A stretch of 48,885 nucleotides of DNA from the NCBI GenBank assembly GCA_018819305.1, contig JAHJQO010000055.1, positions 1-48,885 of the forward strand, read 5' to 3'. Shown in pieces: positions 7,809 through 23,192 of this stretch. Positions within the stretch are counted from its first letter, which is position 1; each line of letters opens with the position of its first letter. The stretch comes from Nanobdellota archaeon. Lineage in GTDB: Archaea; Nanobdellota; Nanobdellia; Woesearchaeales; SM23-78. Under the pieces are notes generated by a model. It did no database searches and was not told the origin of the DNA. It saw nothing but the letters and a program-made list of their open reading frames with translations. Position numbers and translations under genes: made by a program.

Positions 7809-7836
7809 ATTGAATATAATTCCTGTTAGTTACTTT
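7809..7836 (+). repeat. dif-like site 4
   Basis: Left arm ATTGAATATAA, spacer TTCCTG, right arm TTAGTTACTTT. The following flank (TTCCCATACGTA... then CTGCGTCCGCAG hairpin) recurs at 11637-11678 after a decayed site. Confidence 0.75.
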
Positions 7837-8097
7837 TCCCATACGTAAGTGTGGGAAAACTGCGTCCGCAGAGTTTTTGAATTACTATATTAATCCGACC
7901 GTAGGGAGACTAAATGTCCGTTAGGATTAAGAGGGGGATTTTCGTTCTATCAAGCGAACAAAGTGAGCAATCCAGGACAAGTATTTAAGGACACACTCAT
8001 AAAGAATGGGGAATCTGGGTTAAAGCATCTGAGAAAATAGAAACATTTAAATAGAAGACTCCTATTTATAGGATAACTTAAACCTAAAAACAGGAAA

Positions 8098-8709
8098 ATG
8101 TTAAAAAAATCATATAGAATAATAGATATATTTGTGAAGAATCCTACAATTACTTATTTATTTGGTGAAGTAAAAAACTATATTGGTAGTAAGTCTGAAA
8201 GTTATACTTACAATTCTCTCAATTCCTTTGTTAAAGAGGGTATTTTAACTAAGGAAAAGAAAGGTGGATTAAGAATCTATAAAATAGCAAATACACCCAA
8301 AGCAATTTCTTTCTTATCGATGGTTGCTGAATATAAAGCATGGAATACTAAAGATTTTCCAATAAACAGCATTTATGATTTAGTTAAAAAAGCGAATATT
8401 AACTTTTTTGTGTTATTAGTTACTGGAAGTTATGCTAAAGGAAATCAAACTTCAAAATCTGATATGGATATGATATTAATAGTGCCAAATGATGCCAAAA
8501 AAATTAATTCAAGATTAAGGCATTTCTGTGAAATGAATATTCCTCAAATACACTTATATGTTTTTACAGATGAAGAATTTAAACAAATGTTATTAGATGA
8601 AAAGCATAATTATGGGAAAGAAGCTGTAAAAGACAATCTGATATTTTATGGAGCAGAAGCATATTATAAAATAATATTTGAGGCGATGAAAAATGGGTTC
8701 ACTTACTGA
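8098..8709 (+). CDS. MNT-type minimal nucleotidyltransferase with N-terminal winged helix (antitoxin-like)
   Basis: The first about 95 residues look like a winged helix (SESYTYNSLNSFVKEGILTKEKKGGLRIYKI). A minimal nucleotidyltransferase core follows, with the signature VTGSYAKGNQTSKSDMDMILIV, which gives the GS motif and the paired acidic residues. MNT proteins AMPylate their HEPN partners and act as antitoxins. The next gene is a HEPN protein and overlaps by 17 bp, the usual arrangement. A TATA-like CTATTTATAG lies 24-33 nt before the ATG. It is encoded in a module, as toxin-antitoxin genes often are in pdif modules and integrons. Confidence 0.8.
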   Translation: MLKKSYRIIDIFVKNPTITYLFGEVKNYIGSKSESYTYNSLNSFVKEGILTKEKKGGLRIYKIANTPKAISFLSMVAEYKAWNTKDFPINSIYDLVKKANINFFVLLVTGSYAKGNQTSKSDMDMILIVPNDAKKINSRLRHFCEMNIPQIHLYVFTDEEFKQMLLDEKHNYGKEAVKDNLIFYGAEAYYKIIFEAMKNGFTY

Positions 8710-9190
8710 AATATATGTAGATAGGGCAAATAATGAAATTATGGTAGCAGAATCATTGAAAAGACTAAGCGAAAAAGAAGAGGATAAAGTAAATTTTGAT
8801 TTACCTGACGACATTAGTTTTTACAGCTCTGTCATCTCACATTCCTATTATGCTATTTTTTATGCAGCAAAAGCTCTTCTTTTGATTAAAGGTATAGAAA
8901 CAAAAGCACCAGAAGTTCATAAAAAGACCTTTGAGGAATTTAAGCAGAAGTTTGTTGATACTAAAGAACTGGATGTTAGCCTCTTAAAAATATACAAGAA
9001 AATGATGGTGAGGGCTGATGAACTACTGGAAATATTCAAAGATGAAAAATGGAAGCGAGGTCATTTTACTTACCAGACAATTCCTCAAGCAAATAAAGAA
9101 CCGGCTGAAGATTCATTGAAGAATGCAAAATTCTTCGTATCAAATATTATGAGGGTAATCAAAGAATCAAATTCGAGGGGTGAAAAATAA
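8693..9190 (+). CDS. HEPN-domain protein (toxin-like partner of the MNT protein)
   Basis: This all-helical 165-aa protein has SVISHSYYAIFYAAKALLLIKG at residues 46-67, the typical central helix of HEPN proteins, and a C-terminal RGHFTYQ segment. HEPN proteins of this class are often RNases silenced by a partner MNT nucleotidyltransferase. I could not place a clean R-x4-6-H active motif, so RNase activity is not certain. The gene overlaps the MNT gene by 17 bp and ends on the start codon of the next gene. Confidence 0.75.
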   Translation: MGSLTEIYVDRANNEIMVAESLKRLSEKEEDKVNFDLPDDISFYSSVISHSYYAIFYAAKALLLIKGIETKAPEVHKKTFEEFKQKFVDTKELDVSLLKIYKKMMVRADELLEIFKDEKWKRGHFTYQTIPQANKEPAEDSLKNAKFFVSNIMRVIKESNSRGEK

Positions 9191-9963
9191 TGTATACAAA
9201 AATTATAATAGGAATGATAGCTATTATTTTTAGTGGTTGTGCCCCAACTTGTCCCAATTCTTGTGATGATGGGAATAAATGCACTGAAGATTTCTGCTCT
9301 GAAAGCACCAGCTATGAATGCCAACATAGTATTATTAAACCCTGCAATGGCAATGGGATTTGTGAAAATGGAGAATATGGAATATCAGAAGACTGTCCTG
9401 ATTGCAATGATGACAATATTTATACAGAAGATAATTACAATATCCAAAAAGAAACTTGTGAGTTTACTTTTCTTTCTGGCTCTGAAGTAACTGAAATGTG
9501 CTTTAATAAATACCATACCGAACGCTATATTACTGAATGTTTATATGATGGTGCTTTGGAAACATTAAATCCCAATATTTGTAATGAGATTAAATTACGT
9601 TATGTTGATACAGATACTGGAGAGTTAAAGATATCTAAAGAACTTTGTATAGCAGAAATTGCATTTAAAAAGAATGATTACTCATTGCTTAGGGGAACCA
9701 TTCTAGATGGAATAAATTTAATTCAAAAAGAAGCTATAGAAAATGAAGATTATAAAATGTGTGAATTAATGGAGTATGTATATGAAGATAAGTCTTTGCC
9801 ATTAAGGTTTATTTGTGAATGTTTTTATGCTGTTTATGACAGCTCAAATATATACACTACTGAGAGATGTGTGGGAGTTTCAGAATATTATCAAAAGATG
9901 TGCTTAAATATACAGTTCCCTAAGTGCTATAATACTCTTCTTGAAACTTGGGGTTATACTTAA
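9190..9963 (+). CDS. Cys-rich secreted lipoprotein, function unknown
   Basis: The N-terminus is a short hydrophobic signal ending in the lipobox FSGC, so the protein is probably exported and lipid-anchored. A cysteine-rich segment follows (CPNSCDDGNKCTEDFC, then CNGNGICENGEYGISEDCPDC), of a kind common on the surface of DPANN archaea. The C-terminal half is helical with further cysteine pairs. It starts at the last base of the HEPN gene and therefore belongs to the same operon. A surface adhesin or receptor is possible, but no known domain is recognised. Confidence 0.7.
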   Translation: MYTKIIIGMIAIIFSGCAPTCPNSCDDGNKCTEDFCSESTSYECQHSIIKPCNGNGICENGEYGISEDCPDCNDDNIYTEDNYNIQKETCEFTFLSGSEVTEMCFNKYHTERYITECLYDGALETLNPNICNEIKLRYVDTDTGELKISKELCIAEIAFKKNDYSLLRGTILDGINLIQKEAIENEDYKMCELMEYVYEDKSLPLRFICECFYAVYDSSNIYTTERCVGVSEYYQKMCLNIQFPKCYNTLLETWGYT

Positions 9964-9966
9964 TGA

Positions 9967-10572
9967 TTGGCTTATAAGTTGAAAATGGATGGATCAACAG
10001 AAGAACAAGTTCTAAATATTCTATTTGGAGAAGCAAAACCCATAATAATTAAAAATTATAAAAATTTAGTTGAAGATTTAAACGAGAAATTGGACAATAT
10101 CGAATTAGAAATAAATCAAAATATTAATGATTTTGCTAGAACACTACCACCCAGCACAATTCAATTCAAGGAAATTAGGCAAAATCATGAAGAAAATATA
10201 CTCCTATTGATTCATGAAATACTGCATGTTCTTTTTACTGTGAAAGTTGTTAAAAAATTTAAGAAAAAACTTGCAGAAGAAGAGAAAAAATATATTGACG
10301 ATAATTTTTTACAATATTTGCTTGATTCGTTTATAGATACGCAGATTTTTATTTTTACTAATTTTGATCATTCTATTTGGAAAAATCTCAAAAAGAGTAC
10401 TTATCCACCATATTTCACCGATGAAGATTTATCTATTTCTTTTAATGAATTTATTCATAAAAATAGTTTGTCTTCCAAGTTAATAAACTTAGATGAATTA
10501 ATTGGAGATTTTATATCCATAAATTATAATAAAATCAAAAAGAATCATTGTTATGAAATTCAAAGAACTTAA
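9967..10572 (+). CDS. HExxH-containing protein, possible zinc metalloprotease
   Basis: The protein has the motif LLLIHEILHVLF near residue 90, a HExxH zinc-binding site inside a predicted helix, with long lysine-rich helices around it. No signal peptide or membrane span is visible. Further zinc ligands are not obvious, so protease activity is only a guess. The frame opens with TTG at 9967; the ATG at 9985 (MDGSTEEQ) is an equally good start. It follows the lipoprotein by 3 bp, which suggests co-translation. Confidence 0.6.
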   Translation: MAYKLKMDGSTEEQVLNILFGEAKPIIIKNYKNLVEDLNEKLDNIELEINQNINDFARTLPPSTIQFKEIRQNHEENILLLIHEILHVLFTVKVVKKFKKKLAEEEKKYIDDNFLQYLLDSFIDTQIFIFTNFDHSIWKNLKKSTYPPYFTDEDLSISFNEFIHKNSLSSKLINLDELIGDFISINYNKIKKNHCYEIQRT

Positions 10573-11026
10573 GCCCCGAGTCTATTTTATTTTTATTCGT
10601 CGTTAGCCCCCGAGAAATAACTTTACTTTATATTAAATCCGAAATTTGGGTCGAACGTAGTGAGCCGTTTAATCTTTGTTATAGGATAGTTGTGAAGCAA
10701 TTTCCTCAGTTTTTTTTCTTTATGAGATTAAACGAAACCGAGAATATTAAAAAATTTGGTTGCATAGCAATCCTTTACTTTCTCGAAGAAAACAGAAAAT
10801 TATTTTTAATAATTTATGCCAATTAATCTCATTAATTGATAGTTCTAAAAAGCTTTGATGGTTTTTGGAATTTTCATCGAGAAAGTTGCGTTAGCAAGGT
10901 GGCTTAAAAATTACGTATAATTCCTGTTATGTGTTTTTTCTGCAAGAAAAAATCGCCGAAGGCGACAGTAGAGAAATAGGCCGTCAACCATTAGATTTAT
11001 AAACTACTTCATAGTTACTATAGTAT
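10573..11026. other. gene-less, hairpin-rich junction region
   Basis: No gene is visible in these 450 bp. The stretch holds a decayed dif-like sequence (near 10594-10620), a GTTTAATC/GATTAAAC inverted repeat, a palindrome CCAATTAAT-CTC-ATTAATTG, and then dif-like site 5 with its flank. After site 5 lies a triloop hairpin TCGCC-GAA-GGCGA. The first part may be a decayed gene-less module. Confidence 0.6.
10910..10937 (+). repeat. dif-like site 5
   Basis: Left arm ATTACGTATAA, spacer TTCCTG, right arm TTATGTGTTTT. The left arm is the least regular of the set; the right arm equals that of site 2. Confidence 0.7.
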
Positions 11027-11371
11027 ATGGGACAAGATTTTTATCAGCCATACTTTGAAGCTGTAAAACAAATATTAAACGGAATTCCAGTGAAAGAACT
11101 TGATGATATTAGACAGCAGTGCAATGAAACATTTCTAAAATCAGTGTCTCCTTATGTGCCTGAGCAAGCTAGAGGTTATACTCCAGAAGCAATTATTACA
11201 GCTTTTGTAGCAGATGCTGAAAATAAAATTCTAATGGGAATGAATACTACTGAAGCATATGGCGGTTTTAAGGGATTGGAACCTGCTGATTTTAGACAAA
11301 GAGGAAGAATAGTTCTTGAACACGCAGTTAAACAATATTTGAAATAAGGCCTATTTCTCAATTGCACATAA
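10927..11371 (+). mobile_element. dif module 4 (one gene)
   Basis: This compact module has one gene between perfect 12-bp inverted repeats: GAGAAATAGGCC at 10971-10982 and GGCCTATTTCTC at 11348-11359. The right copy begins directly after the stop codon and ends one base before the next site. Confidence 0.72.
11027..11347 (+). CDS. unrecognised 106-aa cargo protein
   Basis: This soluble, mostly helical protein (MGQDFYQPYFEAVKQIL..., ..., GRIVLEHAVKQYLK) has no motif that I recognise. AGATTTATAAACT lies about 27-37 nt before the ATG, so the module brings its own promoter. The gene fills module 4 almost fully, and its stop codon touches the inverted repeat. Size and setting fit a mobile single-gene cassette; function unknown. 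Confidence 0.68.
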   Translation: MGQDFYQPYFEAVKQILNGIPVKELDDIRQQCNETFLKSVSPYVPEQARGYTPEAIITAFVADAENKILMGMNTTEAYGGFKGLEPADFRQRGRIVLEHAVKQYLK

Positions 11372-11388
11372 TCGGTGAACGACGAAGA
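11361..11388 (+). repeat. dif-like site 6 (right half damaged)
   Basis: Left arm ATTGCACATAA and spacer TCGGTG are intact, but the right arm reads AACGACGAAGA instead of starting TTA. One half-site is probably lost, so the site is likely inactive or was rejoined imprecisely. Confidence 0.65.
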
Positions 11389-11593
11389 AACTCATCGGGT
11401 TACAGCCCGTAATTCTTTAATATCTGGTTTTTCCTTGTGAAAACCTTGCACTTACTCGCTTTTGCCGAGAGTAATGCGATTATCATTTATAAAGGATAGA
11501 AGGATATATAAATCTTGTCCTAGAAAAGCGGGCGGAATGCGATGATTTGAAAATATCCAAAAGTTATTATATAAGGTTATTAGATCTATTTAT

Positions 11594-11713
11594 ATGGTTA
11601 CTAATAAAGAAAAAGTTGAACAAGTAGTGTTAAGTTCGTTTCCCATACGTAGTGTGGGAAAACTGCGTCCGCAGAGTAATTTTGAGAGGCGTTCTATCAA
11701 GCGAACACAGTGA
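11594..11713 (+). pseudogene. truncated gene start joined to module repeat
   Basis: An archaeal promoter (TTATTATATAAGG about 25 nt upstream) leads to an ATG and about twelve plausible residues (MVTNKEKVEQVVLSS). The frame then runs into the conserved module flank (TTCCCATACGTAG..., CTGCGTCCGCAG) and stops after 39 codons. The switch lies at a decayed dif-like site (left arm AAGTTGAACAA, spacer GTAGTG, right arm TTAAGTTCGTT). This looks like a gene whose body was lost by recombination at the site. Confidence 0.45.
11637..11678 (+). repeat. second copy of the site 4 flank
   Basis: This stretch repeats 7835-7877 with only a few differences. It holds a TTTCCCATAC/GTGTGGGAAA hairpin followed by CTGCG-TC-CGCAG. 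Both copies sit directly after a dif-like right arm, and both are followed by GTTCTATCAAGCGAACA. Confidence 0.7.
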
Positions 11714-11856
11714 GCAATAAAGAACAAGAATCAAGGGGGACAATCTCTTTTTTACTTTTTTTAGGGGGGGGCTTTTTTCATCAAAGGCGAAGCCTCTTTA
11801 ACTTATAGAATAAGGGGGAGTTCCACATAAAGCTCGATGCTTAAAAAATCCAAAAC

Positions 11857-11865
11857 TATTTATAT
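11857..11865 (+). promoter_or_regulatory. TATA box of the HIT gene
   Basis: TATTTATAT lies 25-33 nt before the ATG, consistent with a leaderless transcript. Confidence 0.5.
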
Positions 11866-11889
11866 TGTTGCATATATTTACAAGCTATA

Positions 11890-12318
11890 ATGAAATGTAA
11901 GTGGTGCAATTTTGATAATAAAACCTTGCTAATTAAAGAATATAAATATTGGAGACTTTCTCTTGCAGAAAGTCAAATACTTATCGGCTGGACTCATGCG
12001 TCACTAAAAAGGCATATCTTATTTTTTGAAGAACTTAGAGATGAAGAACTAATAGAACTTAAGAAAATTATTATGGAAATAAAAGAAACACTTAATAAAA
12101 CATTTAAGCCAGATTGGTTTAATGTTATGCAACTTGGTAATATGACGCCACACCTTCATTTTCAATTAGTTCCTAGGTATAAAGAAAAAAGAATTTTTGT
12201 GGGGAGGGAATTTATAGATAAATCCTATGGAAGACCTATTTTAGATGAATGGATTGAAGAAGATAATATTTTCTTGAAAAAATTAAGAAATTACATCAAG
12301 AAAGAGATGAAAAACTAG
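11890..12318 (+). CDS. HIT-family nucleotide hydrolase/transferase
   Basis: The N-terminus MKCKWCNFDN has a CxxC pair typical of the zinc site in HIT proteins. The signature TPHLHFQLVPRY near residue 98 corresponds to HxHxQ, so the catalytic middle histidine is present. HIT proteins of this kind hydrolyse Ap4A, AMP-amidates or related nucleotides. The gene is convergent with the radical SAM operon and overlaps its last gene by 23 bp. A nucleotide-handling role would suit the neighbouring adenosine-deaminase-like gene, but this is inference. Confidence 0.78.
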   Translation: MKCKWCNFDNKTLLIKEYKYWRLSLAESQILIGWTHASLKRHILFFEELRDEELIELKKIIMEIKETLNKTFKPDWFNVMQLGNMTPHLHFQLVPRYKEKRIFVGREFIDKSYGRPILDEWIEEDNIFLKKLRNYIKKEMKN

Positions 12319-13090
12319 CTTTAAATGTATCTTCATATACTTTATCCAAGTCAGCTTCCGGTAAAATGGACTTTAATATGGCGTATTCATTAACTATATT
12401 TGTGTTAAAAAAAACAGAGTCATCTTCATTTAATGAGAATGAACAGCCTCTTTCGTATAAGAGTAACACTGGGTGGTTATGTAAACTAGCTCTTTTTGTA
12501 TAAATATTACTTGTTAAGCAAACTTCAATATGTATTCCTTTCTCCAATATTAAACCAATATTTTTCTCAGATATGGAAAGGCCATGACCTATTCGCCTTG
12601 GATTAAATTTAAGTAACTGAATAAGTTCCTCATCACCTGATTGTTCACCTAAGTGATACGTGTAAGGTATATTCTCATATTCTAATTTCCCCATAACTTT
12701 ATAAAATTTTGATGGGGGATTACCATATTCCCTACCCGTAAAATCAACACCACAAATTAGACCATCATTAAAAAGCTGGATTATAGTAGATGTGTCTTCT
12801 AAAGGACAATTTTGTCGCCTAAGAGAATATATACTAGGTAAACGGCGGAATTCTTTAAGCAATTCTTTTGAAAATGAATAATCTGTCAGATTTCCTTGAT
12901 AATCAACCCTAATTTCTGAAAAGAAATCAGTCCTATCACCATACTGATTCAAACAAGCTAATAAGTCTTCAACAGTACGTTTTTTTGAACCAAACCAATT
13001 ATAGACTTCAACTCTATTTTCCCAAGAACACTCAATGAAATCCAGTTTAAGTGATCCTTCTAAATGTGAATGTAGCTGAGCATATCTCAT
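12296..13090 (-). CDS. adenosine-deaminase-like amidohydrolase (divergent, short)
   Basis: Family marks are QLHSHLEGSLKLDF at residues 5-18 (metal-binding HxH and substrate loop), YHLGEQ near 145, RIGHGLSI near 166, IEVCLTSN near 185 and FSLNEDDSVFFN near 215. These give the zinc ligands and the catalytic H and D/E of adenosine deaminases. At 264 aa it is 70-100 residues shorter than typical ADA. It is the last gene of the operon, overlapping the upstream radical SAM gene by 4 bp. Radical SAM enzymes release 5'-deoxyadenosine, and archaea are known to deaminate that by-product, so this enzyme may recycle it or act on the pathway product. Confidence 0.72.
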   Translation of the reverse strand: MRYAQLHSHLEGSLKLDFIECSWENRVEVYNWFGSKKRTVEDLLACLNQYGDRTDFFSEIRVDYQGNLTDYSFSKELLKEFRRLPSIYSLRRQNCPLEDTSTIIQLFNDGLICGVDFTGREYGNPPSKFYKVMGKLEYENIPYTYHLGEQSGDEELIQLLKFNPRRIGHGLSISEKNIGLILEKGIHIEVCLTSNIYTKRASLHNHPVLLLYERGCSFSLNEDDSVFFNTNIVNEYAILKSILPEADLDKVYEDTFKASFSSLS

Positions 13091-14088
13091 CTTAATTCAC
13101 CTAGTCTTTTTATGTAGTCCTTACATGATTTAAAGCCAAATGTAAAAGTGTAGTTATGTTTCATAGGCGCAAGCCTGCAGCCGCCACATTCTTCTAAAAC
13201 TTCACAAACTGTGCATTTAGAATTTGGAATTAAACTATCTTCAAGGCTATGAAGAAAATCTTCTTTTGATGAACCCAGAATATTACTTTTTGATATATGG
13301 AATTCACAAGGAGAGTAACTTCCATTAGGTTTAATAACCACTGATGCTCCTACTTCACAACCAAAGATCTCTGAAGCAGTTTTTGAAATTTGTCTGTAAT
13401 CCCTGCTAAATGCAAAGGAGTCATAGATCCTCCATTTTTGCTTTACTTCAACACTTTGTTTAATCTTCGACGCGATTGCAAAATACTCTTCTAAGGATAA
13501 AGGGGTTGCTTCCAGGGGGTTTCTCATACTAAATATTGGCTGGAAATTAAATGTGAAGTTTTGTGAAATTCCTTTCATATATGCAATAAAATCATATAAT
13601 TCTAATGAATTTTCCTTATAAACTGACGTTCTTATTGCAATGTCAGCTTCTAAATCACACATTTTCTTGATATTAGAAATTGTATTATCAAAAGAACCTC
13701 GAAATTTATCGTGAATATCTTTTTCACCGTCCAAACTCACTTCAATATGAAGATTGCTCTTATTTACCAAAGACATAAATTCTATAGGTATGGATACACC
13801 ATTTGTAACTACTGTAACATTAGCTGTTGTATCTAATGCAGTTTTTATAGCTTGACTAATACCTTTTTTTGTAAACACTTCCCCACCAGAAAATTTGTAG
13901 TCTATTAAATCATGCTGGAATATGGTGTTAAGAAACTCTACCACTTTAATCCATTCATTAGCAGAAAGCTCATATTGCTTTGTTTTATCTTGATAACAAT
14001 AAACACAGTTTAGGTTACATAAATTAGTTATTTCTAAACCTGCAGAAAGTTTAAGCTTTTTTTTCCTAAGAATATCAACTAAACTCAT
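13087..14088 (-). CDS. radical SAM/SPASM enzyme
   Basis: The N-terminal part carries CNLNCVYCYQD (residues 23-33), the CxxxCxxC motif that binds the radical SAM iron-sulfur cluster. FSGGEVF follows as the GGE motif, and VSLDGEKDIHDKFRG is typical of SPASM proteins. The C-terminal part has a SPASM-like cysteine array (CEVG, SPCEFH, CTVCEVLEECGGC, CKDY) for auxiliary clusters. Such enzymes often modify peptides or proteins. It overlaps both neighbours by 4 bp in the operon. Confidence 0.85.
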   Translation of the reverse strand: MSLVDILRKKKLKLSAGLEITNLCNLNCVYCYQDKTKQYELSANEWIKVVEFLNTIFQHDLIDYKFSGGEVFTKKGISQAIKTALDTTANVTVVTNGVSIPIEFMSLVNKSNLHIEVSLDGEKDIHDKFRGSFDNTISNIKKMCDLEADIAIRTSVYKENSLELYDFIAYMKGISQNFTFNFQPIFSMRNPLEATPLSLEEYFAIASKIKQSVEVKQKWRIYDSFAFSRDYRQISKTASEIFGCEVGASVVIKPNGSYSPCEFHISKSNILGSSKEDFLHSLEDSLIPNSKCTVCEVLEECGGCRLAPMKHNYTFTFGFKSCKDYIKRLGELR

Positions 14089-14579
14089 TTTATTTCGATT
14101 ACCTCACCAAAATTAATTATACGATTTTTTAATCCGAAATCATCCATCAGTCTTGCAATTACTCCTGCATGTGAGACTATAGCAATATCATTAAGACATA
14201 TTATTGATTGATAAAATGAATCCACCCTATCATAAAAATCCGCTTTTTTTTCTCCATTTGGTGGTGCCTCTTCAAAATTAAAGCTTCCAAAATCTGAAAT
14301 TAGCTCATCAATGGGTTTTCCATTATAACAACCATAATTTCTTTCTCTTATTCTACTATCCTTTTTGTAAGGAATATTTGTTATTTGGTTGATTAATTGA
14401 GTAAAATATAAAGTTCTATCAAGATCACTTGTTATTATTTGATTTGTACCTTCAATTTGTTTAGCTACTGCTTCTGCTTGTCTTATTCCTCTTTGAGTAA
14501 GTGTTCCTGGATTATAACCTAATAATATTTTATTTAACCCTTCAATGGTTTCTCCATGTCTAATCAGATAGATGCTCAT
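14085..14579 (-). CDS. histidine phosphatase (phosphoglycerate-mutase-like)
   Basis: The protein starts MSIYLIRHGETIEG, with the catalytic RHG motif at residues 7-9, and ends with IAIVSHAGVIARL, the second catalytic histidine. At 164 aa it is a compact branch 1 histidine phosphatase, related to alpha-ribazole and sugar phosphatases. I set the start at the ATG at 14579 because GGAAGGAG lies upstream at a suitable distance; the frame is open to 14603. It overlaps genes on both sides, so it is part of the radical SAM operon and probably removes a phosphate from an intermediate. Confidence 0.82.
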   Translation of the reverse strand: MSIYLIRHGETIEGLNKILLGYNPGTLTQRGIRQAEAVAKQIEGTNQIITSDLDRTLYFTQLINQITNIPYKKDSRIRERNYGCYNGKPIDELISDFGSFNFEEAPPNGEKKADFYDRVDSFYQSIICLNDIAIVSHAGVIARLMDDFGLKNRIINFGEVIEIK

Positions 14580-15414
14580 CTTTAAGTAACTCCTTCCATT
14601 CATCTATAATCTCCGAGTTTACTTTTCTAGATGATTTTGGAACTTTTTTACATCTTCTACAAATTTCGTTATTTCTATCATGTTTCAATAACTCGGCTCT
14701 GAGCTGGTTATATTCAACTGAAAACCAAAGGTCCAAGAAAGTTCTGTCTTTCAAGTTGCCAATAATCCCAAATTTTCGATGTAGTTCATCAGCAGGATAT
14801 ATCTCACAACATATTTTCATATTACCATCAACATCTATAGCACTTGAAACAAAAGGAAGATAACAATCATCAGAAAAATCTCTTTTTTTCACTAATCCCC
14901 CTCTATTAGTAAATAAGTCCCTATTAGGTGCCAGATATGAAACATCCATATTATTAAATTTCAGTTTACTAACAATCCCCTCATCAGTTATTATAGGTTG
15001 CGCATTTAGTCCAAGAGTCTTTGCATGTGTTATTATGGCTTCAATTGGGCTTTGATTTGAAGAATAGATGGCAATCCTAACAAGATTAGCGCCATGAGAA
15101 TCCAGTTTTGTTAATTTTTCTCTGGTTAATATATCTCCATTTGTTAATATCATCCTTTTAGAATCAGGAATATTTTCCGCTAATGTCTCAAGATGTTCAT
15201 ATAAAAAAGGATCAAATAATGGTTCATTATAATTATGAAGTGCAACTGCTCCTTTATATCTTACACATCCAAGCTCAATAACTATTTTCTTAAAAAGACC
15301 ATCATCGATCAGTTTTTGTTTGGTACCTCTATCATATACACTATTGGGGCAAAAACTACAACGTCGATTACAATATGTTGATGTTTCAATTTCGATAAAA
15401 TTTGGTAAAAGCAT
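14560..15414 (-). CDS. radical SAM enzyme with SPASM/twitch-type C-terminal domain
   Basis: The motif STYCNRRCSFCPNS (residues 12-25) is the cluster-binding CxxxCxxC. The C-terminal region has KICCEIYP and EICRRCKKVP, the cysteines of a SPASM-like domain, around GIIGNLKDRTFLDLWFSVEYNQLR, a hallmark of SPASM proteins. Length (284 aa) fits the shorter twitch/SPASM group. It starts 2 bp after the B12-type radical SAM gene and overlaps the phosphatase gene, so all are made from one mRNA. Substrate unknown. Confidence 0.83.
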   Translation of the reverse strand: MLLPNFIEIETSTYCNRRCSFCPNSVYDRGTKQKLIDDGLFKKIVIELGCVRYKGAVALHNYNEPLFDPFLYEHLETLAENIPDSKRMILTNGDILTREKLTKLDSHGANLVRIAIYSSNQSPIEAIITHAKTLGLNAQPIITDEGIVSKLKFNNMDVSYLAPNRDLFTNRGGLVKKRDFSDDCYLPFVSSAIDVDGNMKICCEIYPADELHRKFGIIGNLKDRTFLDLWFSVEYNQLRAELLKHDRNNEICRRCKKVPKSSRKVNSEIIDEWKELLKDEHLSD

Positions 15415-15416
15415 AT

Positions 15417-16691
15417 TTATCTCCTGAAAAACTCATTAGCCTCATTTATTACCCTATGAAGTTGTTCTTTTGAATAAGCTTCCACTTCAAAAATTGGTGC
15501 ATCTGTTTTCTTCATTCTATATTCGCCCCATGAATCGTTCATCCTCAAACCCATTTTTATAGCCACTTCTCTCATTACTGTTCCCGGATATGGCGTTGCC
15601 TCAAAGAAGTGTGCTTTATTCGGGTTAATTTCTTTTGCAAAATTGATTGTTTCCATTATTGAACTAGGAGTATCCCAAGGTGTTCCTAGAATAAAATAAG
15701 CATTGACAAAAATATCATTTTCTTGACATAATCTGACAGCAGTTCTTGCTTGTGACTTTGTTATCCCCTTTTTCATGTGTCTAAGGACTTCTTCATTTCC
15801 ACTCTCTATTCCTATGTTTGCGGCTACGCAACCTGAATCTCTCATCTTTTGTAATAAGTATTTATCAGCGGAATCTACTCTCATTTGAATTTTCCATTCA
15901 TAACCTTTGTGTTTAATCAAATCACAAATTTCATAAACTCTATTTTTGTTGAGCATAAAATTATCATCCCAGAACATAAAAGCGGTTACTCCTTTTTCTG
16001 CAAGTTGATCCATCTCAGCGACAACATTTTCTGCACTTCTTGCCCTAAATTTTTTTCCTGCGGCAGGTCCTCTGTAGCAGAAAGTGCATTGATAAGGACA
16101 ACCTCTGCTTGAGATTATGCTTGCAGCTTTTCTATCTGAACCATGAATATCCTGAAGATAATATTCAAAAGGCACTAGTGTTCTATCCGGAAAAGGTATA
16201 GAATCAAGATCATTTATAAAATCAGATATTTCATTGTCCACTCTATTACCCCTGTGGATATGTGATACGCCCCCTATATTCTTCCAAGATTCTCCTATAG
16301 AGTTTTTAACCAGTAAAGAAATCAGTTTTTCTCCCTCTCCTCTGTAAGCACCAGTTACGCCTTTTATATCAAGAACTTCATTAGTAATAACTGCTGCAGC
16401 AATGCCCCCCACAAATATTTTACTGTTAGGGATTTTAACACTTAATTCTTCAATTTTTTGTTTTCCTTTTGGAAACGAAGGAACCATCATTGTTACACCA
16501 ATAAAATCTGGCGACCATTTGATAATTTCATCTTCAAGTGCTTTCGATTCACCAATATTATAGTCAATGGCTCGAATCTCTCTTAATCCGTCCATTTTCA
16601 GCGTGCTTGAAAGATAAGCCAAGCTAAGAGGAAATCCTCCAAGAATATCTCCAGGTATTTCTGGATTTAATAATAATATTTTTTTATTCAT
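15417..16691 (-). CDS. B12-binding-type radical SAM enzyme
   Basis: The first about 150 residues resemble a cobalamin-binding Rossmann domain (MNKKILLLNPEIP..., SPDFIGVTMMVPSFPKG, KIFVGGIAAAVI). The core has ISSRGCPYQCTFCYRG with the CxxxCxxC motif, followed by FWDDNFMLN and IESGNEEVLRHMKKG, all typical of the B12-dependent radical SAM class that carries out methylations and ring rearrangements. The DxHxxG cobalamin-histidine motif is not evident, so cofactor use is uncertain. The ATG at 16691 is preferred; another ATG lies 6 bp upstream. The gene overlaps the HemN-like gene. Confidence 0.83.
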   Translation of the reverse strand: MNKKILLLNPEIPGDILGGFPLSLAYLSSTLKMDGLREIRAIDYNIGESKALEDEIIKWSPDFIGVTMMVPSFPKGKQKIEELSVKIPNSKIFVGGIAAAVITNEVLDIKGVTGAYRGEGEKLISLLVKNSIGESWKNIGGVSHIHRGNRVDNEISDFINDLDSIPFPDRTLVPFEYYLQDIHGSDRKAASIISSRGCPYQCTFCYRGPAAGKKFRARSAENVVAEMDQLAEKGVTAFMFWDDNFMLNKNRVYEICDLIKHKGYEWKIQMRVDSADKYLLQKMRDSGCVAANIGIESGNEEVLRHMKKGITKSQARTAVRLCQENDIFVNAYFILGTPWDTPSSIMETINFAKEINPNKAHFFEATPYPGTVMREVAIKMGLRMNDSWGEYRMKKTDAPIFEVEAYSKEQLHRVINEANEFFRR

Positions 16692-18033
16692 ATACATAAT
16701 CTCTTTGCATCTTTAATACAGCTTCACTAAAAAATAGTTTGGCAACCGCATCTGCTCTTTTGAATCCTTTTTCAGTAAGTTTAATCAGACTACCATCTCT
16801 TTCAAGAAAGCCATCTTCATATAATAATTGAAATTCTGCTGAAAAAACATCTTCGGGGTATGTTCCAAACTTTTTATGAAATGCTTCTCTACTAAATGCC
16901 GAATGCCTTATATTCATAGTGATCGCACGACGCATCCTCTCACCATCATCTAATACAAAAGCATACCTCGCAGGATGTCTTCTGGCTTGAATATCTCCTG
17001 TATATTCCAATATATCCCTTCTACAATGCGAAACGGAATAAGAGGGTCTATAATGAAGATATTCTGCATAAGACTGTGCAGCTGACCCGAACCCTTTAAC
17101 AGGTTTTCCTTTTATGGTTTCATCTTTGTGTGCATATCTTCCTACTTTGGGTAATAAAAATCTAAGCCTTGTATCTTGTACATATCCTTCACTAATCAAC
17201 AAAGGCTTAAAATAATCGTACATATTATCAATTTTAGATTTGTCTACTCCTTCAGCCCCTATTTTTTTCCAAAACCTAGTTAGTGGCTTTACATTTAATG
17301 GATAAAGAGAGATTGTACCTGGTCTAAGATCTAAAACTCTAGATAGAGTATCTCTAAGCATATCTATTGTCTGATCTGGGTGGCCATAGATTATGTCGAT
17401 ATTTATATTTTCAAATCCTGTCTCTTTTAATGCTCGAAAAATGTCTATAGGAGTTTGGTCTGAATATTTTCTTCCCATCTCTCTAATTTGTGATTTGTCC
17501 AAAGATTGTAACCCTAAGGATACCCTTGTAATCCCGAATTCTTTCATTACTTCAAGTTTTTCAAGGGTAGTGGAATCTGGTGAGATTTCTATACAAAATT
17601 CTTTTAAAGTGCGTGTATCGCTTATTTTGCTGACAATATCACCAAAAAATCTTCTCATTTGTTCAGCGCTTAAATAAGAAGGAGTGCCTCCACCAACATA
17701 AGCAGTTATTACGTTAAATTTTGCGATTACTTCTTGGTACATCTCCATTTCTTTTACTAAAGCATCCAAATACTCATCAATTAAAGTAGCATCTTCTTTT
17801 ATTGCAAATGATTCAATATTACAATAGCTGCATTTTTGTCTACAAAATGGAATATGAAAGTATACATTAAGATATTTTTGTTCAGTTGATTCCCACGCAT
17901 CTAGGGGGTTTATGTCATGAGTTATTTTTGGATAGATTTTATGAGGGGGGTATGTGTAGACAAAATGTCCTGGATTAATATTTGCTATTAATTCTTCTAG
18001 TCTTTTCCTAACTCTATCTATTTCATCTACCAT
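16684..18033 (-). CDS. HemN/HemW-like radical SAM enzyme
   Basis: The motif FHIPFCRQKCSYCNIESF near residue 57 is the HemN-type CxxxCxxC with the extra flanking residue pattern. It is followed by YVGGGTPSYLS, ISPDSTT, RVSLGLQSLDKSQIREMGR and NIDIIYGHPDQT, which match coproporphyrinogen-oxidase-like proteins (HemN, HemW, ChuW and the HemN-like methyltransferases). The C-terminal part has a winged-helix-like end. No haem genes are near, so a natural-product or cofactor role within this operon is more likely. I use the ATG at 18033; a TTG lies 6 bp upstream. Confidence 0.84.
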   Translation of the reverse strand: MVDEIDRVRKRLEELIANINPGHFVYTYPPHKIYPKITHDINPLDAWESTEQKYLNVYFHIPFCRQKCSYCNIESFAIKEDATLIDEYLDALVKEMEMYQEVIAKFNVITAYVGGGTPSYLSAEQMRRFFGDIVSKISDTRTLKEFCIEISPDSTTLEKLEVMKEFGITRVSLGLQSLDKSQIREMGRKYSDQTPIDIFRALKETGFENINIDIIYGHPDQTIDMLRDTLSRVLDLRPGTISLYPLNVKPLTRFWKKIGAEGVDKSKIDNMYDYFKPLLISEGYVQDTRLRFLLPKVGRYAHKDETIKGKPVKGFGSAAQSYAEYLHYRPSYSVSHCRRDILEYTGDIQARRHPARYAFVLDDGERMRRAITMNIRHSAFSREAFHKKFGTYPEDVFSAEFQLLYEDGFLERDGSLIKLTEKGFKRADAVAKLFFSEAVLKMQRDYVYE

Positions 18034-18751
18034 TTTCAATCATTTTTAGTGCTTTGTTTAAAGGTTTAATAAATATTAAGTCTTCTCTTGGGTGACCCAT
18101 ATGCAAATGGTCTAAAACAAGTTGATTATAAGGTAAAGACTGTGGAGGATGATATAAACCATCTTCTTTTGAAAAAGAGGATAACATTTTTCTATTAATC
18201 TCTTTTCCTGAACAGCATACATAATCCATGAGAATTTCATAAGCTTGTGAAGATAAGGTTCTGCTATGTCCAGTTTCTTCTAAAAAACGATTTAATACGA
18301 ATCTTACTGTAAAATCGCTGGGAATAAAATTATCTGGAAATGTGTAAAAACCTTTTTCAAAGAAGTCTCTACTTTCAGAATTGGCAAATAATAGATTTGC
18401 ATAATTTTGATTCAAAACCAATTCGGCATCCACATAAAATCTTTGAGTTCTTACGTCAAGACTGAACTCAGTTTTTCTTGGTGAGATTAAAACACCTTGA
18501 AATTGGGATTCTAAATCCTCTTTCAATTTTAGAGGTATCTCGCAATAATCTTTGAATTGTTCATTTTCACGAACATAAAAATCAAGATCTGCGCCATCTA
18601 ATAATCTTCCTCTATTCCATACTATTCCTTTAACTAACACAAATTCTAAACCATTTTGATTGAATCTTTGAGTAATTTCAAAGAATCTTTTATCTATATT
18701 CAGTTCTTCATGAGGGTATTTTACTCTCTGATAACTTTTATTTGGTAACAT
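18023..18751 (-). CDS. nucleotidyltransferase-fold protein, first gene of the radical SAM operon
   Basis: Residues 30-65 read NGLEFVLVKGIVWNRGRLLDGADLDFYVREN. The DLDFYV acidic pair after a GxxxxxGR-like stretch resembles the active site of minimal nucleotidyltransferases, though the family cannot be named. The C-terminal half is helical. A TATA-like element lies at 18772-18782, 21-31 nt before the ATG, and drives the seven-gene minus-strand operon. The end overlaps the HemN-like gene by 11 bp. It could activate a substrate by nucleotidyl transfer or work as a binding protein. Confidence 0.6.
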   Translation of the reverse strand: MLPNKSYQRVKYPHEELNIDKRFFEITQRFNQNGLEFVLVKGIVWNRGRLLDGADLDFYVRENEQFKDYCEIPLKLKEDLESQFQGVLISPRKTEFSLDVRTQRFYVDAELVLNQNYANLLFANSESRDFFEKGFYTFPDNFIPSDFTVRFVLNRFLEETGHSRTLSSQAYEILMDYVCCSGKEINRKMLSSFSKEDGLYHPPQSLPYNQLVLDHLHMGHPREDLIFIKPLNKALKMIENGR

Positions 18752-18771
18752 ACTTACTAAGAAGTAGTACT

Positions 18772-18782
18772 AAAATATAAAA
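18772..18782 (-). promoter_or_regulatory. TATA box of the radical SAM operon
   Basis: On the minus strand the sequence reads TTTTATATTTT, 21-31 nt before the first start codon. It is the only evident promoter for the seven tightly overlapping genes. Confidence 0.55.
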
Positions 18783-19020
18783 CTTTTGTTTTTTCTCCGA
18801 AAGATTTTCGAATGGAACCCTCCTATCAGTTTAAAATTGTCCCCTTTCTAAATATAAATTTCTTTTACGAAGTAAAAGTGTAAATGTCCGTTAGGACTAG
18901 GAACTCCTCCCTTTAATTAAAGAACTCCCCCTTTCTAAAATAAATCTCTTTTTCAAAGAAAAAGACTATATGTGCGTAGCACTGAACTCCCCCGTTTTTA
19001 AAAAAAGAAATGGAAATTTT

Positions 19021-19048
19021 ATTGTATTTAATCGGTGTTAGTTTCCCT
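19021..19048 (+). repeat. dif-like site 7
   Basis: Left arm ATTGTATTTAA, spacer TCGGTG, right arm TTAGTTTCCCT. Confidence 0.75.
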
Positions 19049-19571
19049 GCCCTCGAATGAGCCCTCCAACGACCGAAAGGGAGTTGAGAGGTGGCGAGTT
19101 CAGAGTTGGCAGGCGCGGAGCAATTCGAAGGATTGCGAAGACGAGTTTTGGGTTTAGGAAAGCCCCTTAAAGAAAATAGTTACTCTTTAGTGGTATAAAA
19201 AGGAAATATTTATAAATAATCCGTTCTTTCATTATTCCATATTATGGAGGCGATAAGATGGGAAAACCACTATATAAGTCATTATATGTAATCGCTGGAA
19301 AAAGAGAGGAGGGCACATATGGGATAATGAGACAAAGGCCTTCTAATGCAGTAAATTGTTTTGATGAACCTGAAGAAGCAGAAAGAGCGAGAATTGAAGA
19401 TGACAGCGTACTTGAAACAATAGTTGTGGACATTGGTCTTTTACTTGATACAAATATTAAAAGAAAAGGAAATACTCTTGATACTTCTGTAAAATATACA
19501 AGAGATTAATTCTTTTTCGCGCGAAGTGTGAGGTAAAGGGCTTTCCGTTAAAAACCCAAAATTGAAACTAA
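19038..19571 (+). mobile_element. dif module 6 (one gene)
   Basis: A single small gene lies between a two-part inverted repeat. TTTTGGGTTT and GGAAAGCCC (19146-19165) match GGGCTTTCC and AAACCCAAAA (19538-19561) in reverse complement. The outermost base of the right copy is the first base of the next site. Confidence 0.68.
19258..19509 (+). CDS. unrecognised 83-aa cargo protein
   Basis: This small charged protein (MGKPLYKSLYVIAGKREEGTYG..., acidic EEAERARIEDDS centre) has no motif that I know. The start is supported by GGAGG 7 nt before the ATG, and a TATA-like AAATATTTATAAAT lies further upstream, so the mRNA has a short leader, unlike most module genes. It is the only gene of module 6. It could be an antitoxin-sized or anti-defence protein, but there is no direct evidence. 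Confidence 0.65.
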   Translation: MGKPLYKSLYVIAGKREEGTYGIMRQRPSNAVNCFDEPEEAERARIEDDSVLETIVVDIGLLLDTNIKRKGNTLDTSVKYTRD

Positions 19572-19588
19572 TCGGTGTTGTGTTCTTT
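19561..19588 (+). repeat. dif-like site 8
   Basis: Left arm ATTGAAACTAA, spacer TCGGTG, right arm TTGTGTTCTTT. Confidence 0.75.
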
Positions 19589-19736
19589 TGCCGAGCGGAA
19601 CGAACCGCTGTGAGTTCCCTCCTGGCAAAATTCGAAGCACAGCAGTGCTGAGAAAGTATGACGCAGGCAACAAGTTAATTGTTATTAACGTTAATTTTTC
19701 TCCAAAAATTATGTTGCCGAGTAATATTGAACACAA
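19578..19736 (+). mobile_element. dif module 7 (gene-less, three-way-junction fold)
   Basis: Only about 160 bp long and without a plausible gene. Its core 19666-19718 can fold into a three-way junction: outer stem GGCAACA/TGTTGCC, hairpin GTTAAT-TGTT-ATTAAC (19674-19689) and hairpin AATTTTT-CTCC-AAAAATT (19693-19710). Left of it are TTTTGCC/GGCAAAA and AGCGG/CCGCT stems. Confidence 0.65.
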
Positions 19737-19753
19737 TCGGTGTTATGTCTCCC
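19726..19753 (+). repeat. dif-like site 9
   Basis: Left arm ATTGAACACAA, spacer TCGGTG, right arm TTATGTCTCCC. The left arm ACACAA and the right arm TTATGT show the inverted symmetry well. Confidence 0.78.
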
Positions 19754-20239
19754 GACGACTGAAAGGAGGAGAATGCAATGTGGTCGAGGATTTGCGTAGC
19801 AAATCCGAAGAAGTCGGCAAATGGCGAATACTATCGAGAACGAAGTTCAATTAAATAAAAGAAGAAAGGGCAAAAAGAGATTATGCTTTTTGAGAAAATC
19901 CAGATTCTGGATCAATTAACCACAAATCAAAACCTTCTCTGAATTTACCAACTCCAATTTGGACATCTTTTCCAGCAGGAGTTCTAACGGTATATGTATC
20001 AATAGTTTTGTTTTGTGGGAACCCTAATTGAGTTTGTACAGCTTCTGGAAGTTCATCCATTGCTCTTTTTCTTAAAGCTTCATCTCCGAAACCTGCATAG
20101 TAAAGTCCCATTTCAATGGCACTTTCTCGTGAATCATATTGTGATGTCATTTTATGTTTGTAACTATGTAGTAGTATTTAAAGGTTTCGGTATGCTTTTT
20201 GCCCTTTCTACTAATTCGCCATTTGCCGATTGTATTTAA
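19743..20239 (+). mobile_element. dif module 8 (one minus-strand gene)
   Basis: The module is bounded by two perfect inverted repeats: outer 16 bp (TCGGCAAATGGCGAAT at 19814-19829 with 20214-20229) and inner 15 bp (AGAAAGGGCAAAAAG at 19863-19877 with 20195-20209). Its left flank has an 8-bp stem with GTA loop (19788-19806), in the same place where modules 1 and 10 have different triloop stems. Confidence 0.75.
19881..20150 (-). CDS. unrecognised 89-aa cargo protein
   Basis: The product (MTSQYDSRESAIEMGLYYAG, then FPQNKTIDTYTVRTPAGKDVQIGVGKFREGFDLWLIDPESG) looks like a short helical part followed by a beta-rich domain. I do not recognise the family. It runs opposite to the direction of the sites. 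TTTAAA-type promoter sequence lies upstream on the minus strand (near 20170-20180). It lies inside the paired inverted repeats of module 8. Confidence 0.66.
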   Translation of the reverse strand: MTSQYDSRESAIEMGLYYAGFGDEALRKRAMDELPEAVQTQLGFPQNKTIDTYTVRTPAGKDVQIGVGKFREGFDLWLIDPESGFSQKA

Positions 20240-20256
20240 TCGGTGTTACATTCTCC
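20229..20256 (+). repeat. dif-like site 10
   Basis: Left arm ATTGTATTTAA, spacer TCGGTG, right arm TTACATTCTCC. Confidence 0.75.
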
Positions 20257-20397
20257 GAGTGAGCCCAGTTGTGCGGAGGTTCCCTGCACCTGTGGCGAAC
20301 GAGGACGAGGAGCCACAAAGTGGCGACGAAGAGTTTTGCCCTTTGGTTGATAAGGTTTTTTCTTGAGACCAAAATTTTGGGGAAAAATTGAACACAA
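20246..20397 (+). mobile_element. dif module 9 (gene-less)
   Basis: About 150 bp with no gene: a GC-rich hairpin region, then TTTTGCCC ... GGGGAAAA and TTTGGT (20342-20347) paired with ACCAAA (20368-20373). Its right end is nearly identical to that of module 11, so both are copies of one element. Minus-strand reading frames through it are made of hairpin sequence and are not believable genes. Confidence 0.62.
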
Positions 20398-20414
20398 TGC
20401 CTGTTAAATGCCCC
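20387..20414 (+). repeat. dif-like site 11
   Basis: Left arm ATTGAACACAA, spacer TGCCTG, right arm TTAAATGCCCC. Confidence 0.75.
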
Positions 20415-20942
20415 GAGCGTAGCGAGAATGCAATGTGGTTCGAGTGCGAAGCACGAGAAAGTCGGGCGTAGGCGGGCTTATCGTTTCCATCCTTTAATAT
20501 CTGGATGAAAATCAACTTGATATGCAGGAATACCTAAGGAAATTCCATAATTCTTAGCTTCATCATATTCTTTTTTACTTGTTCTATCAATAAAAAACAT
20601 TTTATCGCGAAAGATTATATAATGATGAGAATCGTTTTTGAAATCAGCATACCAAGAATGTTTTGAATCTAACGATTTGCTTAAATCTTTCGCAATTGTA
20701 TTCGCTTGATTTTCTGGAAGTTCAACAGTGTGTAGAGTCCATTGTTTAATCCACGGAGTTTTATGTTTTTCAGTAACTTTCTCGATTTTGGTCTTGAGAA
20801 TTTTTACTTTCTTCAGAACATCTTTTTTCTCAAGACTTTCTTCAATTATTACTCCGACAAAATTTTTAGTCATATTTTTGATTACACTGTTGAAATTTAT
20901 AAAAGTATTGGTTCGCGCCCGCCGTAGCCCGATTGCATTTAA
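20404..20942 (+). mobile_element. dif module 10 (one minus-strand gene)
   Basis: The private inverted repeat is TCGGGC, GTA, GGCGGGC (20462-20477) against GCCCGCC, GTA, GCCCGA (20917-20932), so 13 of 16 bases pair. A GTGC-GAA-GCAC hairpin (20444-20454) sits in the left flank. Confidence 0.7.
20478..20873 (-). CDS. conserved hypothetical protein (131 aa)
   Basis: The protein contains SKHSWYADFKNDSHHYIIFRDKMFF followed by IDRTSKKEYDEAKNYGISLGIPAYQVDF. I recall this pattern from a widespread small hypothetical family in bacteria and archaea whose function is not assigned. The true start is the ATG at 20873 (MTKNFVGVIIEES); the open frame continues another 67 codons only because it runs through the GC-rich site 12 flank. 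It is the single gene of module 10. Presence of a bacteria-like family inside the array fits horizontal gain. Confidence 0.72.
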   Translation of the reverse strand: MTKNFVGVIIEESLEKKDVLKKVKILKTKIEKVTEKHKTPWIKQWTLHTVELPENQANTIAKDLSKSLDSKHSWYADFKNDSHHYIIFRDKMFFIDRTSKKEYDEAKNYGISLGIPAYQVDFHPDIKGWKR

Positions 20943-20959
20943 TCGGTGTTGTGTTCTCT
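20932..20959 (+). repeat. dif-like site 12
   Basis: Left arm ATTGCATTTAA, spacer TCGGTG, right arm TTGTGTTCTCT. Confidence 0.75.
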
Positions 20960-21099
20960 GAGTGAGCCCTCCTGTGCGGAGTTCCCTGCACGAGTGGCGA
21001 ACGAAGACGAGGACGACCGCAGGGAGGACGAAGAGTTTTTCCCTTTGGTTGATAAGGTTTTTTCTTGAGACCAAAATTTTGGGGAAAAATTGAACACAA
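20949..21099 (+). mobile_element. dif module 11 (gene-less, copy of module 9)
   Basis: About 150 bp without a gene. Its last 60 bp match module 9 almost base for base. In the GC-rich part the two copies differ, yet pairing is kept: here CCTCCTGTGCGG pairs with CCGCAGGGAGG. The outer stem TTTTTCCC/GGGAAAAA is perfect here. Confidence 0.62.
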
Positions 21100-21116
21100 T
21101 CGATGTTATATTCTTT
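21089..21116 (+). repeat. dif-like site 13
   Basis: Left arm ATTGAACACAA, spacer TCGATG, right arm TTATATTCTTT. The right arm is very close to that of the Pyrococcus XerA dif site as I recall it. Confidence 0.75.
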
Positions 21117-22226: not shown

Positions 22227-23192
22227 ATGATAGATGAAGTTAAACTAGATTTGAAAGACAAGAAAATTTTATTTGAGTTGGATAAAAATTCTCGTCAGAG
22301 TAATAGTGAGATTGCTAAAAAAGTTGGACTTAATAAGAATACAGTTAATTATAAGATAAATAGAATGACTCAAGAAGGAGTCATAAAAGGTTATTATTCT
22401 GTTATAGACAGTTCTAAACTAGGTTACTTTTCAATAAGAATATATCTAAAATTTTTTAATACTAAATTAGAAGATGAAAAAAAGATGATTGAATGGTTAA
22501 ATAGCCAAAAAATAGTCGGAGTTCTAGCAAAAATAGAAACGATTTACGATTTAGTTTTAATGTGTTGGGTTAAAAATATTTATGAGTTTGAAGATTTTTT
22601 GCAGGAGTTTAAGAAGAAGTTTAGAAAACATTTTTGGCAAGAGAAGGTTCATATTTTCTCAAAAGTTCTCCATTTTAAGAGAAAATACCTTTTATCGCAA
22701 AAAAAAGAATATGATGAAGAGCCAGAAACAATAGGTGGGAAAGAAATCTCTGATTTTGATGAACTGGATTTAAAGATACTAAGACTACTTGCCAAAAATG
22801 CGAGAATGCCTTTGATAGATATTTCTAGTAAACTTAAAACTCCTGAAAGGACGATCGCATTTAGAATAAAGCAATTAGAGAAAAAGAAAATAATTCAAGG
22901 ATATAGAATAAATTTAGAGCTTCAAAAAATAGGATTTGAATATTATAAACTAAATTTTATACTTAATGACTTCTCAAAATATGAAGAACTGGAAAGTTTT
23001 TGTAAAATTCACGAAAATGTAATTTATATAGATAAGACTTTGGAAGAGTTAGACTTTGAGATTGATGTAGAGATAAAAAATAAACAAGAACTTTTAAAAC
23101 TAATCTCGGAAATAAAAGAAAAGTTTAGTGTAAGAAGTGTAGATATTTTAGAGCTTAAAGAGTATATTAAGTTAGAGAGTATTCCGCAGTAG
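22227..23192 (+). CDS. tandem Lrp/AsnC-type transcriptional regulator
   Basis: The 321-aa protein has two HTH-plus-effector units. The first HTH is LDLKDKKILFELDKNSRQSNSEIAKKVGLNKNTVNYKINRM; the second, near residue 185, is FDELDLKILRLLAKNARMPLIDISSKLKTPERTIAFRIKQLEKKKI. Each is followed by an Lrp-like ligand/oligomerisation segment. The duplicated form is less common than the 150-aa single unit and would act like a covalent dimer. A palindrome over its TATA box suggests autoregulation. It is cargo of the last module and sits nearest to the recombinase gene. Confidence 0.82.
   Translation: MIDEVKLDLKDKKILFELDKNSRQSNSEIAKKVGLNKNTVNYKINRMTQEGVIKGYYSVIDSSKLGYFSIRIYLKFFNTKLEDEKKMIEWLNSQKIVGVLAKIETIYDLVLMCWVKNIYEFEDFLQEFKKKFRKHFWQEKVHIFSKVLHFKRKYLLSQKKEYDEEPETIGGKEISDFDELDLKILRLLAKNARMPLIDISSKLKTPERTIAFRIKQLEKKKIIQGYRINLELQKIGFEYYKLNFILNDFSKYEELESFCKIHENVIYIDKTLEELDFEIDVEIKNKQELLKLISEIKEKFSVRSVDILELKEYIKLESIPQ

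Follow-up and report, generated by a model that had tools for sequence, protein, structure and literature searches.

The contig JAHJQO010000055.1 of a Nanobdellota archaeon (assembly GCA_018819305.1; Woesearchaeales, SM23-78) encodes an operon of seven minus-strand genes (12296-18751), four of which code for radical S-adenosylmethionine (SAM) enzymes. Judging from sequence comparisons, this operon could represent an orphan yet complete pathway, encoded in an accessory cassette of this DPANN archaeon, that makes or tailors a small polar metabolite (a sugar, an aminocyclitol, a nucleoside or a glycan block), a reading to which we give somewhat less than an even chance. Its fuller form is doubtful, namely that a new pathway of seven enzymes, perhaps eight with a protein of the HIT superfamily, leads to a radical-modified sugar, cyclitol or nucleoside and is carried as one large cassette in an integron-like archaeal Xer/dif exchange array that uses dif-like sites. 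The claim of a new pathway from a single copy is reasonable but unproven. The firmest clue comes from the BtrN-like enzyme, whose features make a substrate of the sugar, cyclitol or nucleoside type likelier than a peptide. The window analysed is the entire contig (48,885 nucleotides, nt), which belongs to a 1.53-Mb draft genome, and comparisons with Pfam, NCBIfam, PADLOC and the PDB were run on its proteins.

Organization of the operon

The operon, its predicted promoter and the adjoining HIT gene comprise the following features:

18023-18751, minus strand: first gene, a weakly nucleotidyltransferase-like protein of 242 amino acids, with a GADLD motif and KG upstream of it
16684-18039, minus strand: HemN/STM4012-like radical SAM enzyme, 451 amino acids, with CRQKCSYC, GGGTP and a HemN_C domain
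15417-16697, minus strand: radical SAM enzyme with a B12-binding fold, 426 amino acids, with CPYQCTFC
14560-15414, minus strand: BtrN-like radical SAM/twitch enzyme, 284 amino acids, with CNRRCSFC at residue 15, auxiliary cysteines 184, 202, 252 and 255, and NRGG
14085-14603, minus strand: histidine phosphatase (branch 1), 172 amino acids, alpha-ribazole-phosphatase-like, with RHGE and SHAG; alternative start at 14579
13087-14088, minus strand: radical SAM/SPASM enzyme, 333 amino acids, with an SkfB/PapB/NirJ2-like core and a seven-cysteine SPASM pattern
12296-13090, minus strand: short adenosine-deaminase-like (ADA-like) protein, 264 amino acids, with HSHLEGS, HLGE, RIGHG, CLTSN and SLNEDD
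18768-18782, minus strand: TATA-like box TTTATATTTT, which precedes the first ATG by about 26 nt; predicted promoter of a putatively leaderless transcript
11890-12318, plus strand: HIT-superfamily protein, 142 amino acids, with HLHFQ (HxHxQ type, as in the nucleotidyl-transferring HIT branches)

The seven open reading frames (ORFs) contain no internal stops, and no frame damage was seen in them in this assembly. They are intact and, as the initial annotation had proposed, lie on the same strand and overlap (by 4-44 nt), with a single exception, a 2-nt gap between the BtrN-like and B12-fold genes. Indeed, the ADA/SPASM and SPASM/phosphatase junctions are each 4-nt overlaps of the ATGA type, the B12-fold and HemN-like genes overlap by 14 nt, the HemN-like and first genes by 17 nt (11 nt if the ATG at 18033, the likelier start of the HemN-like enzyme, is used), and the phosphatase and BtrN-like genes by 44 nt (20 nt if the internal ATG at 14579 is used). 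Shine-Dalgarno-like sequences (AGGAG, GGTGA) precede several of the internal starts, and none is present upstream of the first gene (ATG at 18751). The single TATA-like box and these internal starts support the promoter shared by all seven genes that had been suggested earlier, and the arrangement fits one leaderless archaeal-type promoter for the whole operon. The HIT gene is convergent with the operon and terminates within its last gene, with a 23-nt overlap of the 3' ends, and may be part of the same unit. No tRNA or Rfam element was found in the window.

Pfam places four of the proteins among the radical SAM enzymes and recognizes the histidine phosphatase at 94.2 bits and the adenosine deaminase at 82.5 bits, so that these families of the initial annotation hold, in agreement with their motifs, whereas the nucleotidyltransferase assignment of the first gene is weak (PF14907, E=0.21, below threshold) and relies on the GADLD motif and the KG that precedes it. 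The cluster cysteines of the four radical SAM enzymes and the catalytic residues are intact in all six recognizable enzymes, which suggests that the set is under constraint or was recently acquired. For the first gene, NCBIfam and PADLOC gave no match and the PDB none that is meaningful; searches of the plasmid collection, of 59 relatives and of 250 genomes from another phylum returned no homolog of it, such empty results being weak evidence. For the ADA-like protein and the first-gene product, single-sequence AlphaFold models had a mean pLDDT (predicted local distance difference test) of 37 and were not used.

Enzymes and proposed pathway

The only solved relatives of the BtrN-like protein are two BtrN entries (E=4e-21). 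BtrN is the 2-deoxy-scyllo-inosamine dehydrogenase of butirosin biosynthesis, and the arginine of its NRGG motif is located in the active site. The two proteins have in common the radical SAM/twitch architecture, the core CX3CX2C motif, four auxiliary cysteines and NRGG, but share only about 30% identity. Indeed, C184, C202, C252, C255 and NRGG of the archaeal protein align with their BtrN counterparts, the arginine being aligned to residue 152 of the BtrN chain. BtrN oxidizes a ring alcohol of 2-deoxy-scyllo-inosamine, and its auxiliary cluster is the likely electron acceptor (PMC9012708). A gene that would provide a 2-deoxystreptamine context (inosose synthase, aminotransferase) is not present among the annotated window proteins. 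A smaller BtrN-like relative sits in a Sodalis cluster that contains a 2-deoxy-scyllo-inosose synthase. Glycan genes are present at 23 of the 80 best BtrN-like loci, in archaea and bacteria, versus none of the 21 loci of a small and unmatched control set, and a B12-fold radical SAM gene is found nearby at 13 of these 80 loci.

The B12-fold enzyme, in which the DxHxxG cobalamin motif is not present, is best matched by the HpnJ (172.5 bits), BchE (155.1 bits) and AprD4 (119 bits) models, and also by ApyD and PhpK, all far under their cut-offs; the curated AprD4 model (NF033070) requires 500 bits. Its closest solved structure is AprD4 (6fd2), at 104 bits versus 60 for the runner-up. AprD4 is an enzyme of the synthesis of apramycin, an aminoglycoside, and dehydrates a diol (PMC5461906). 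The archaeal enzyme resembles AprD4, HpnJ and BchE in its N-terminal B12-binding fold and radical SAM core, but no hopanoid or bacteriochlorophyll genes accompany it, which sets it apart from HpnJ and BchE. Together, the BtrN features, the glycan and inosose clusters of the relatives and the kinship of the B12-fold enzyme with AprD4 favour a sugar-like or nucleoside-like substrate.

In the proposed pathway, (i) the BtrN-like enzyme would convert a ring C-OH into C=O, its auxiliary cluster taking up the electrons, (ii) the B12-fold enzyme would catalyse a removal or an alkylation at a neighbouring carbon, either an AprD4-type dehydration or a methylation like other class B enzymes, (iii) the HemN-like and SPASM enzymes would perform additional C-H chemistry, (iv) the first gene product, and possibly the HIT protein, would activate an intermediate by nucleotide transfer, (v) the phosphatase would strip a phosphate from an intermediate, and (vi) the ADA-type deaminase could act on an adenine-bearing intermediate or clear the by-product 5'-deoxyadenosine, whose release is expected from all four radical enzymes. 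A nucleoside- or nucleotide-based product, which the initial annotation had deduced from the deaminase, the phosphatase and the nucleotidyltransferase, is not established, because the nucleotidyltransferase is weak and the deaminase could instead clear 5'-deoxyadenosine.

Several observations weigh against such a pathway, besides the size and composition of the control set mentioned above. Every family model of named function scores below its curated cut-off for the operon enzymes, so that none of them can be assigned to a known function by membership. The AprD4 likeness is confined to the radical SAM core, and the HpnJ and BchE models outscore AprD4. Furthermore, no AprD3-type NADPH reductase is encoded by the seven operon genes or the HIT gene, and the searches described below found no second copy of the set.

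A special case of the pathway, which we regard as unlikely, is that the operon modifies a nucleotide-sugar or a surface glycan and is tied to a glycan/sugar-nucleotide gene group at the left end of the window (880-5980). This group consists of a GH130 gene, a glycosyltransferase fusion, a cupin gene (mannose-6-phosphate-isomerase-like), a cytidylyltransferase gene and HAD genes. It belongs to the same accessory region as the operon, and BtrN-like and B12-fold relatives occur in glycan clusters of related archaea; however, the group lies outside the array of dif-like sites (first site at 6153) and more than 6 kb from the operon, within which a glycosyltransferase is absent.

The HemN-like enzyme matches the STM4012 family (NF006067) over its full length with 303.5 bits, without reaching the cut-off of 380, and is about 30% identical to members of that family; it differs from them in that the partners STM4011 and STM4013-4015 are absent here. 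In three related archaea (G314:C59, G124:C40 and G138:C12), a distant HemN-like relative is conserved together with a TrmB-like regulator and a small P-loop kinase gene, the latter overlapping the 3' end of the HemN-like gene. A role in heme or tetrapyrrole synthesis was rejected: the HemN, BchE, NirJ and AhbC models match, but far under their cut-offs, and no other tetrapyrrole gene is present.

The initial annotation had counted two SPASM/twitch enzymes. One of them is the BtrN-type twitch enzyme, and only the other carries a full SPASM pattern, near-canonical and with seven cysteines (CX2CX5CX2C in place of the usual CX2CX5CX3C). Its top models are SkfB (77.7 bits) and PapB (74.3 bits), and it matches the solved SkfB structure 6efn with E=4e-20. 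A pathway for a ribosomally synthesized and post-translationally modified peptide (RiPP), in which the SPASM, BtrN-like and B12-fold enzymes would modify a peptide from a short gene that escaped detection or is located elsewhere while the other genes serve export or recycling, could be considered on these grounds, as RiPP clusters commonly contain B12-fold and SPASM enzymes and the enzyme shares with SkfB and PapB both the radical SAM core and the seven-cysteine pattern. This explanation is nevertheless rather improbable. Unlike SkfB, the enzyme has no N-terminal leader-binding domain (the alignment starts at residue 12 here and at residue 107 in SkfB), no PqqD-type Pfam match was found among the window proteins scanned, and the seven genes encode neither a leader-binding domain nor a protease or transporter; adenosine deaminases, phosphatases and BtrN-type enzymes are also unusual in such clusters. 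As already noted in the initial annotation, there is no convincing precursor-peptide gene: the flanking gaps (11340-11900 and 18740-19260) hold only low-quality short ORFs, a distant or unusual precursor being possible. A peptide product is therefore less likely than a small polar metabolite, given that a leader-binding domain, a precursor, a peptidase and an exporter are all lacking here.

The ADA-like protein retains the complete metal and substrate motifs (HxH, HxGE, GH and DD). It is shorter than usual, and its match to TIGR01430 is chiefly C-terminal (93.8 bits, under the cut-off of 216.55). A menaquinone (futalosine) pathway, which could combine a deaminase with radical SAM enzymes, was rejected, as the MqnC and MqnE models do not match. 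PADLOC gives weak matches of the SPASM enzyme to viperin (47.9 bits) and of the ADA-like protein to CARF-ADA (43.2 bits), and the operon lies in accessory DNA that also holds an MNT/HEPN-like toxin-antitoxin pair (8098-9190). By analogy with prokaryotic viperins or RADAR, the enzymes might make or consume a modified nucleotide for antiviral or competitive purposes. There is little likelihood of this, since both proteins match other families better (the SPASM enzyme reaches 44.8 bits against the viperin model NF038283, whose cut-off is 180), viperins have no SPASM domain, and the operon includes no sensor, effector or nuclease gene.

Distribution of the gene set

The conserved co-occurrence that a single pathway would predict was looked for and not found. 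When 371 genomes of the host phylum were searched with the BtrN-like, ADA-like and HemN-like proteins, the set was present in the host only. The BtrN-like alignment was also run against about 85,000 species genomes, in a scan that misses relatives with different motifs and contigs shorter than 3 kb; its 80 best loci do not exceed 36% identity, and the operon is at none of them. The operon was likewise absent from the 80 loci obtained with this alignment on viral contigs, in which the HemN-like, first-gene and ADA-like proteins had no match and the B12-fold query retrieved superfamily relatives only. The full set was not found in the plasmid and viral collections. Across the fetched loci outside the host, at most three operon families occur at one locus, and cross-matches between radical SAM proteins explain the loci with three. 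The operon is thus an orphan within the searched collections, and the earlier statement that no known pathway contains this set is supported.

The relatives of the operon members occur singly and are far diverged (mostly 35% identity or less), except that BtrN-like and B12-fold relatives co-occur in some glycan clusters. Without a second copy, no conserved co-occurrence backs one pathway, and the finding that homologs are mostly solitary, which the initial annotation had named as evidence against its proposal, weakens the pathway idea; it does not refute it, since the searches yielded a close ortholog for none of the members. Unrelated accessory genes that share no pathway and came together recently by chance would account for a set seen once, with scattered homologs, in a recombining array region. 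We hold this explanation to be improbable, however, as the genes are seven in a row on one strand with 4-nt ATGA overlaps, no well-scoring dif-like site separates them, and the set forms one interval of an array whose neighbouring intervals hold one or two genes.

An array of dif-like sites and its meaning

The genes for archaeal EF-1A and EF-2 are encoded in the right half of the window, the host being a DPANN archaeon. Three genomes of the same genus are collinear with the window from 24.8 kb onward, and with nothing left of 24.4 kb. Within this accessory part (6153-21116), at least 11 copies of a 28-bp dif-like element occur on one strand, and a recombinase gene follows:

6153, 6826, 7809 and 10910, plus strand: intact dif-like sites left of the operon
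11361-11388, plus strand: degenerate dif-like remnant with intact left arm and spacer, left of the operon interval
near 11616: second degenerate remnant
19021-19048, plus strand: dif-like site, right boundary of the operon interval
19561, 19726, 20229, 20387, 20932 and 21089, plus strand: dif-like sites further right
23549-24421, plus strand: XerA-type tyrosine recombinase, at the junction of accessory DNA and core genes

The element consists of 11-bp arms and a 6-bp spacer (consensus ATTGAATATAA-TCGGTG-TTATGTTCTCT), with 8 of the 11 arm positions complementary. Its consensus is identical to the dif site of Pyrococcus abyssi (PMC2958812) at 19 of 28 positions, a value equalled by 1 of 20,000 shuffles. 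No interval of the array is longer than that of the operon and the HIT gene (about 11.6-19.0 kb); two matches inside the operon (13308 and 15608) have near-background scores and were treated as chance. The recombinase, 2.5 kb beyond the last site, passes the cut-off of NF040815 (224.7 bits, cut-off 220) and does not reach that of the integrase-specific TIGR02249 (205.6 bits, cut-off 265). Two congeners carry an ortholog of this recombinase that likewise follows a site, here at the edge of the contig and in the same orientation. Furthermore, seven dif-like sites on one strand flank RelE-like toxin-antitoxin pairs on another contig of the same genome (C12, 1290-5830), and arrays of six to nine sites are present in congeners and in other families of the order (G129:C25, G052:C114, G461:C4 and G002:C15). 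Of 269 genomes from the order, 27 contain a dif-like pattern, with about 60 matches versus 4 for a reversed control pattern. The operon would be carried in an archaeal Xer/dif-type cassette array with putatively active sites. The mobile module of the initial annotation is thereby supported in a more specific form, given the dif-like arrays here and across the order and the recombinase nearby.

Other features of the arrays include a nucleotidyltransferase and HEPN pair, the toxin-antitoxin-like pair at 8098-9190, which has its own interval, and a direct repeat of about 120-170 bp (7824-7998 and 11628-11745; 80-100% identical in parts), whose copies follow a dif-like site and a degenerate remnant, respectively, and bound a 3.8-kb segment. 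A tandem fusion of two Lrp/AsnC-type regulators (22227-23192) is encoded between the array and the recombinase. In the arrays of the other genomes, two sites about 100-165 bp apart often lie beside a longer, gene-bearing interval.

The array resembles archaeal Xer/dif systems and Acinetobacter dif modules in its 28-bp sites, built of 11-bp arms around a 6-bp spacer, in the XerA-type recombinase nearby and in having sites that flank toxin-antitoxin genes, but differs from both in having many sites per archaeal chromosome, in one orientation within a contig. With integrons it shares an array layout with a recombinase at one end, whereas its sites are dif-like and not attC. Integrons with attC sites have been described in archaea (PMC9668308); an attC integron was rejected here, as no complementary RYYYAAC and GTTRRRY boxes in an attC-like palindrome were found in the array.

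In summary, operons with several radical SAM enzymes are a known kind of biosynthetic operon, and the cassette setting is more surprising than the pathway itself. The genomes of DPANN archaea are small, and few natural-product pathways are known from these organisms, for which four radical SAM enzymes in one operon would provide an unusually rich chemical repertoire. Acinetobacter dif modules move resistance genes. If the dif-like sites are active, they would offer these archaea a route for the exchange of whole pathways and toxin-antitoxin genes, comparable to that of integrons and Acinetobacter dif modules.

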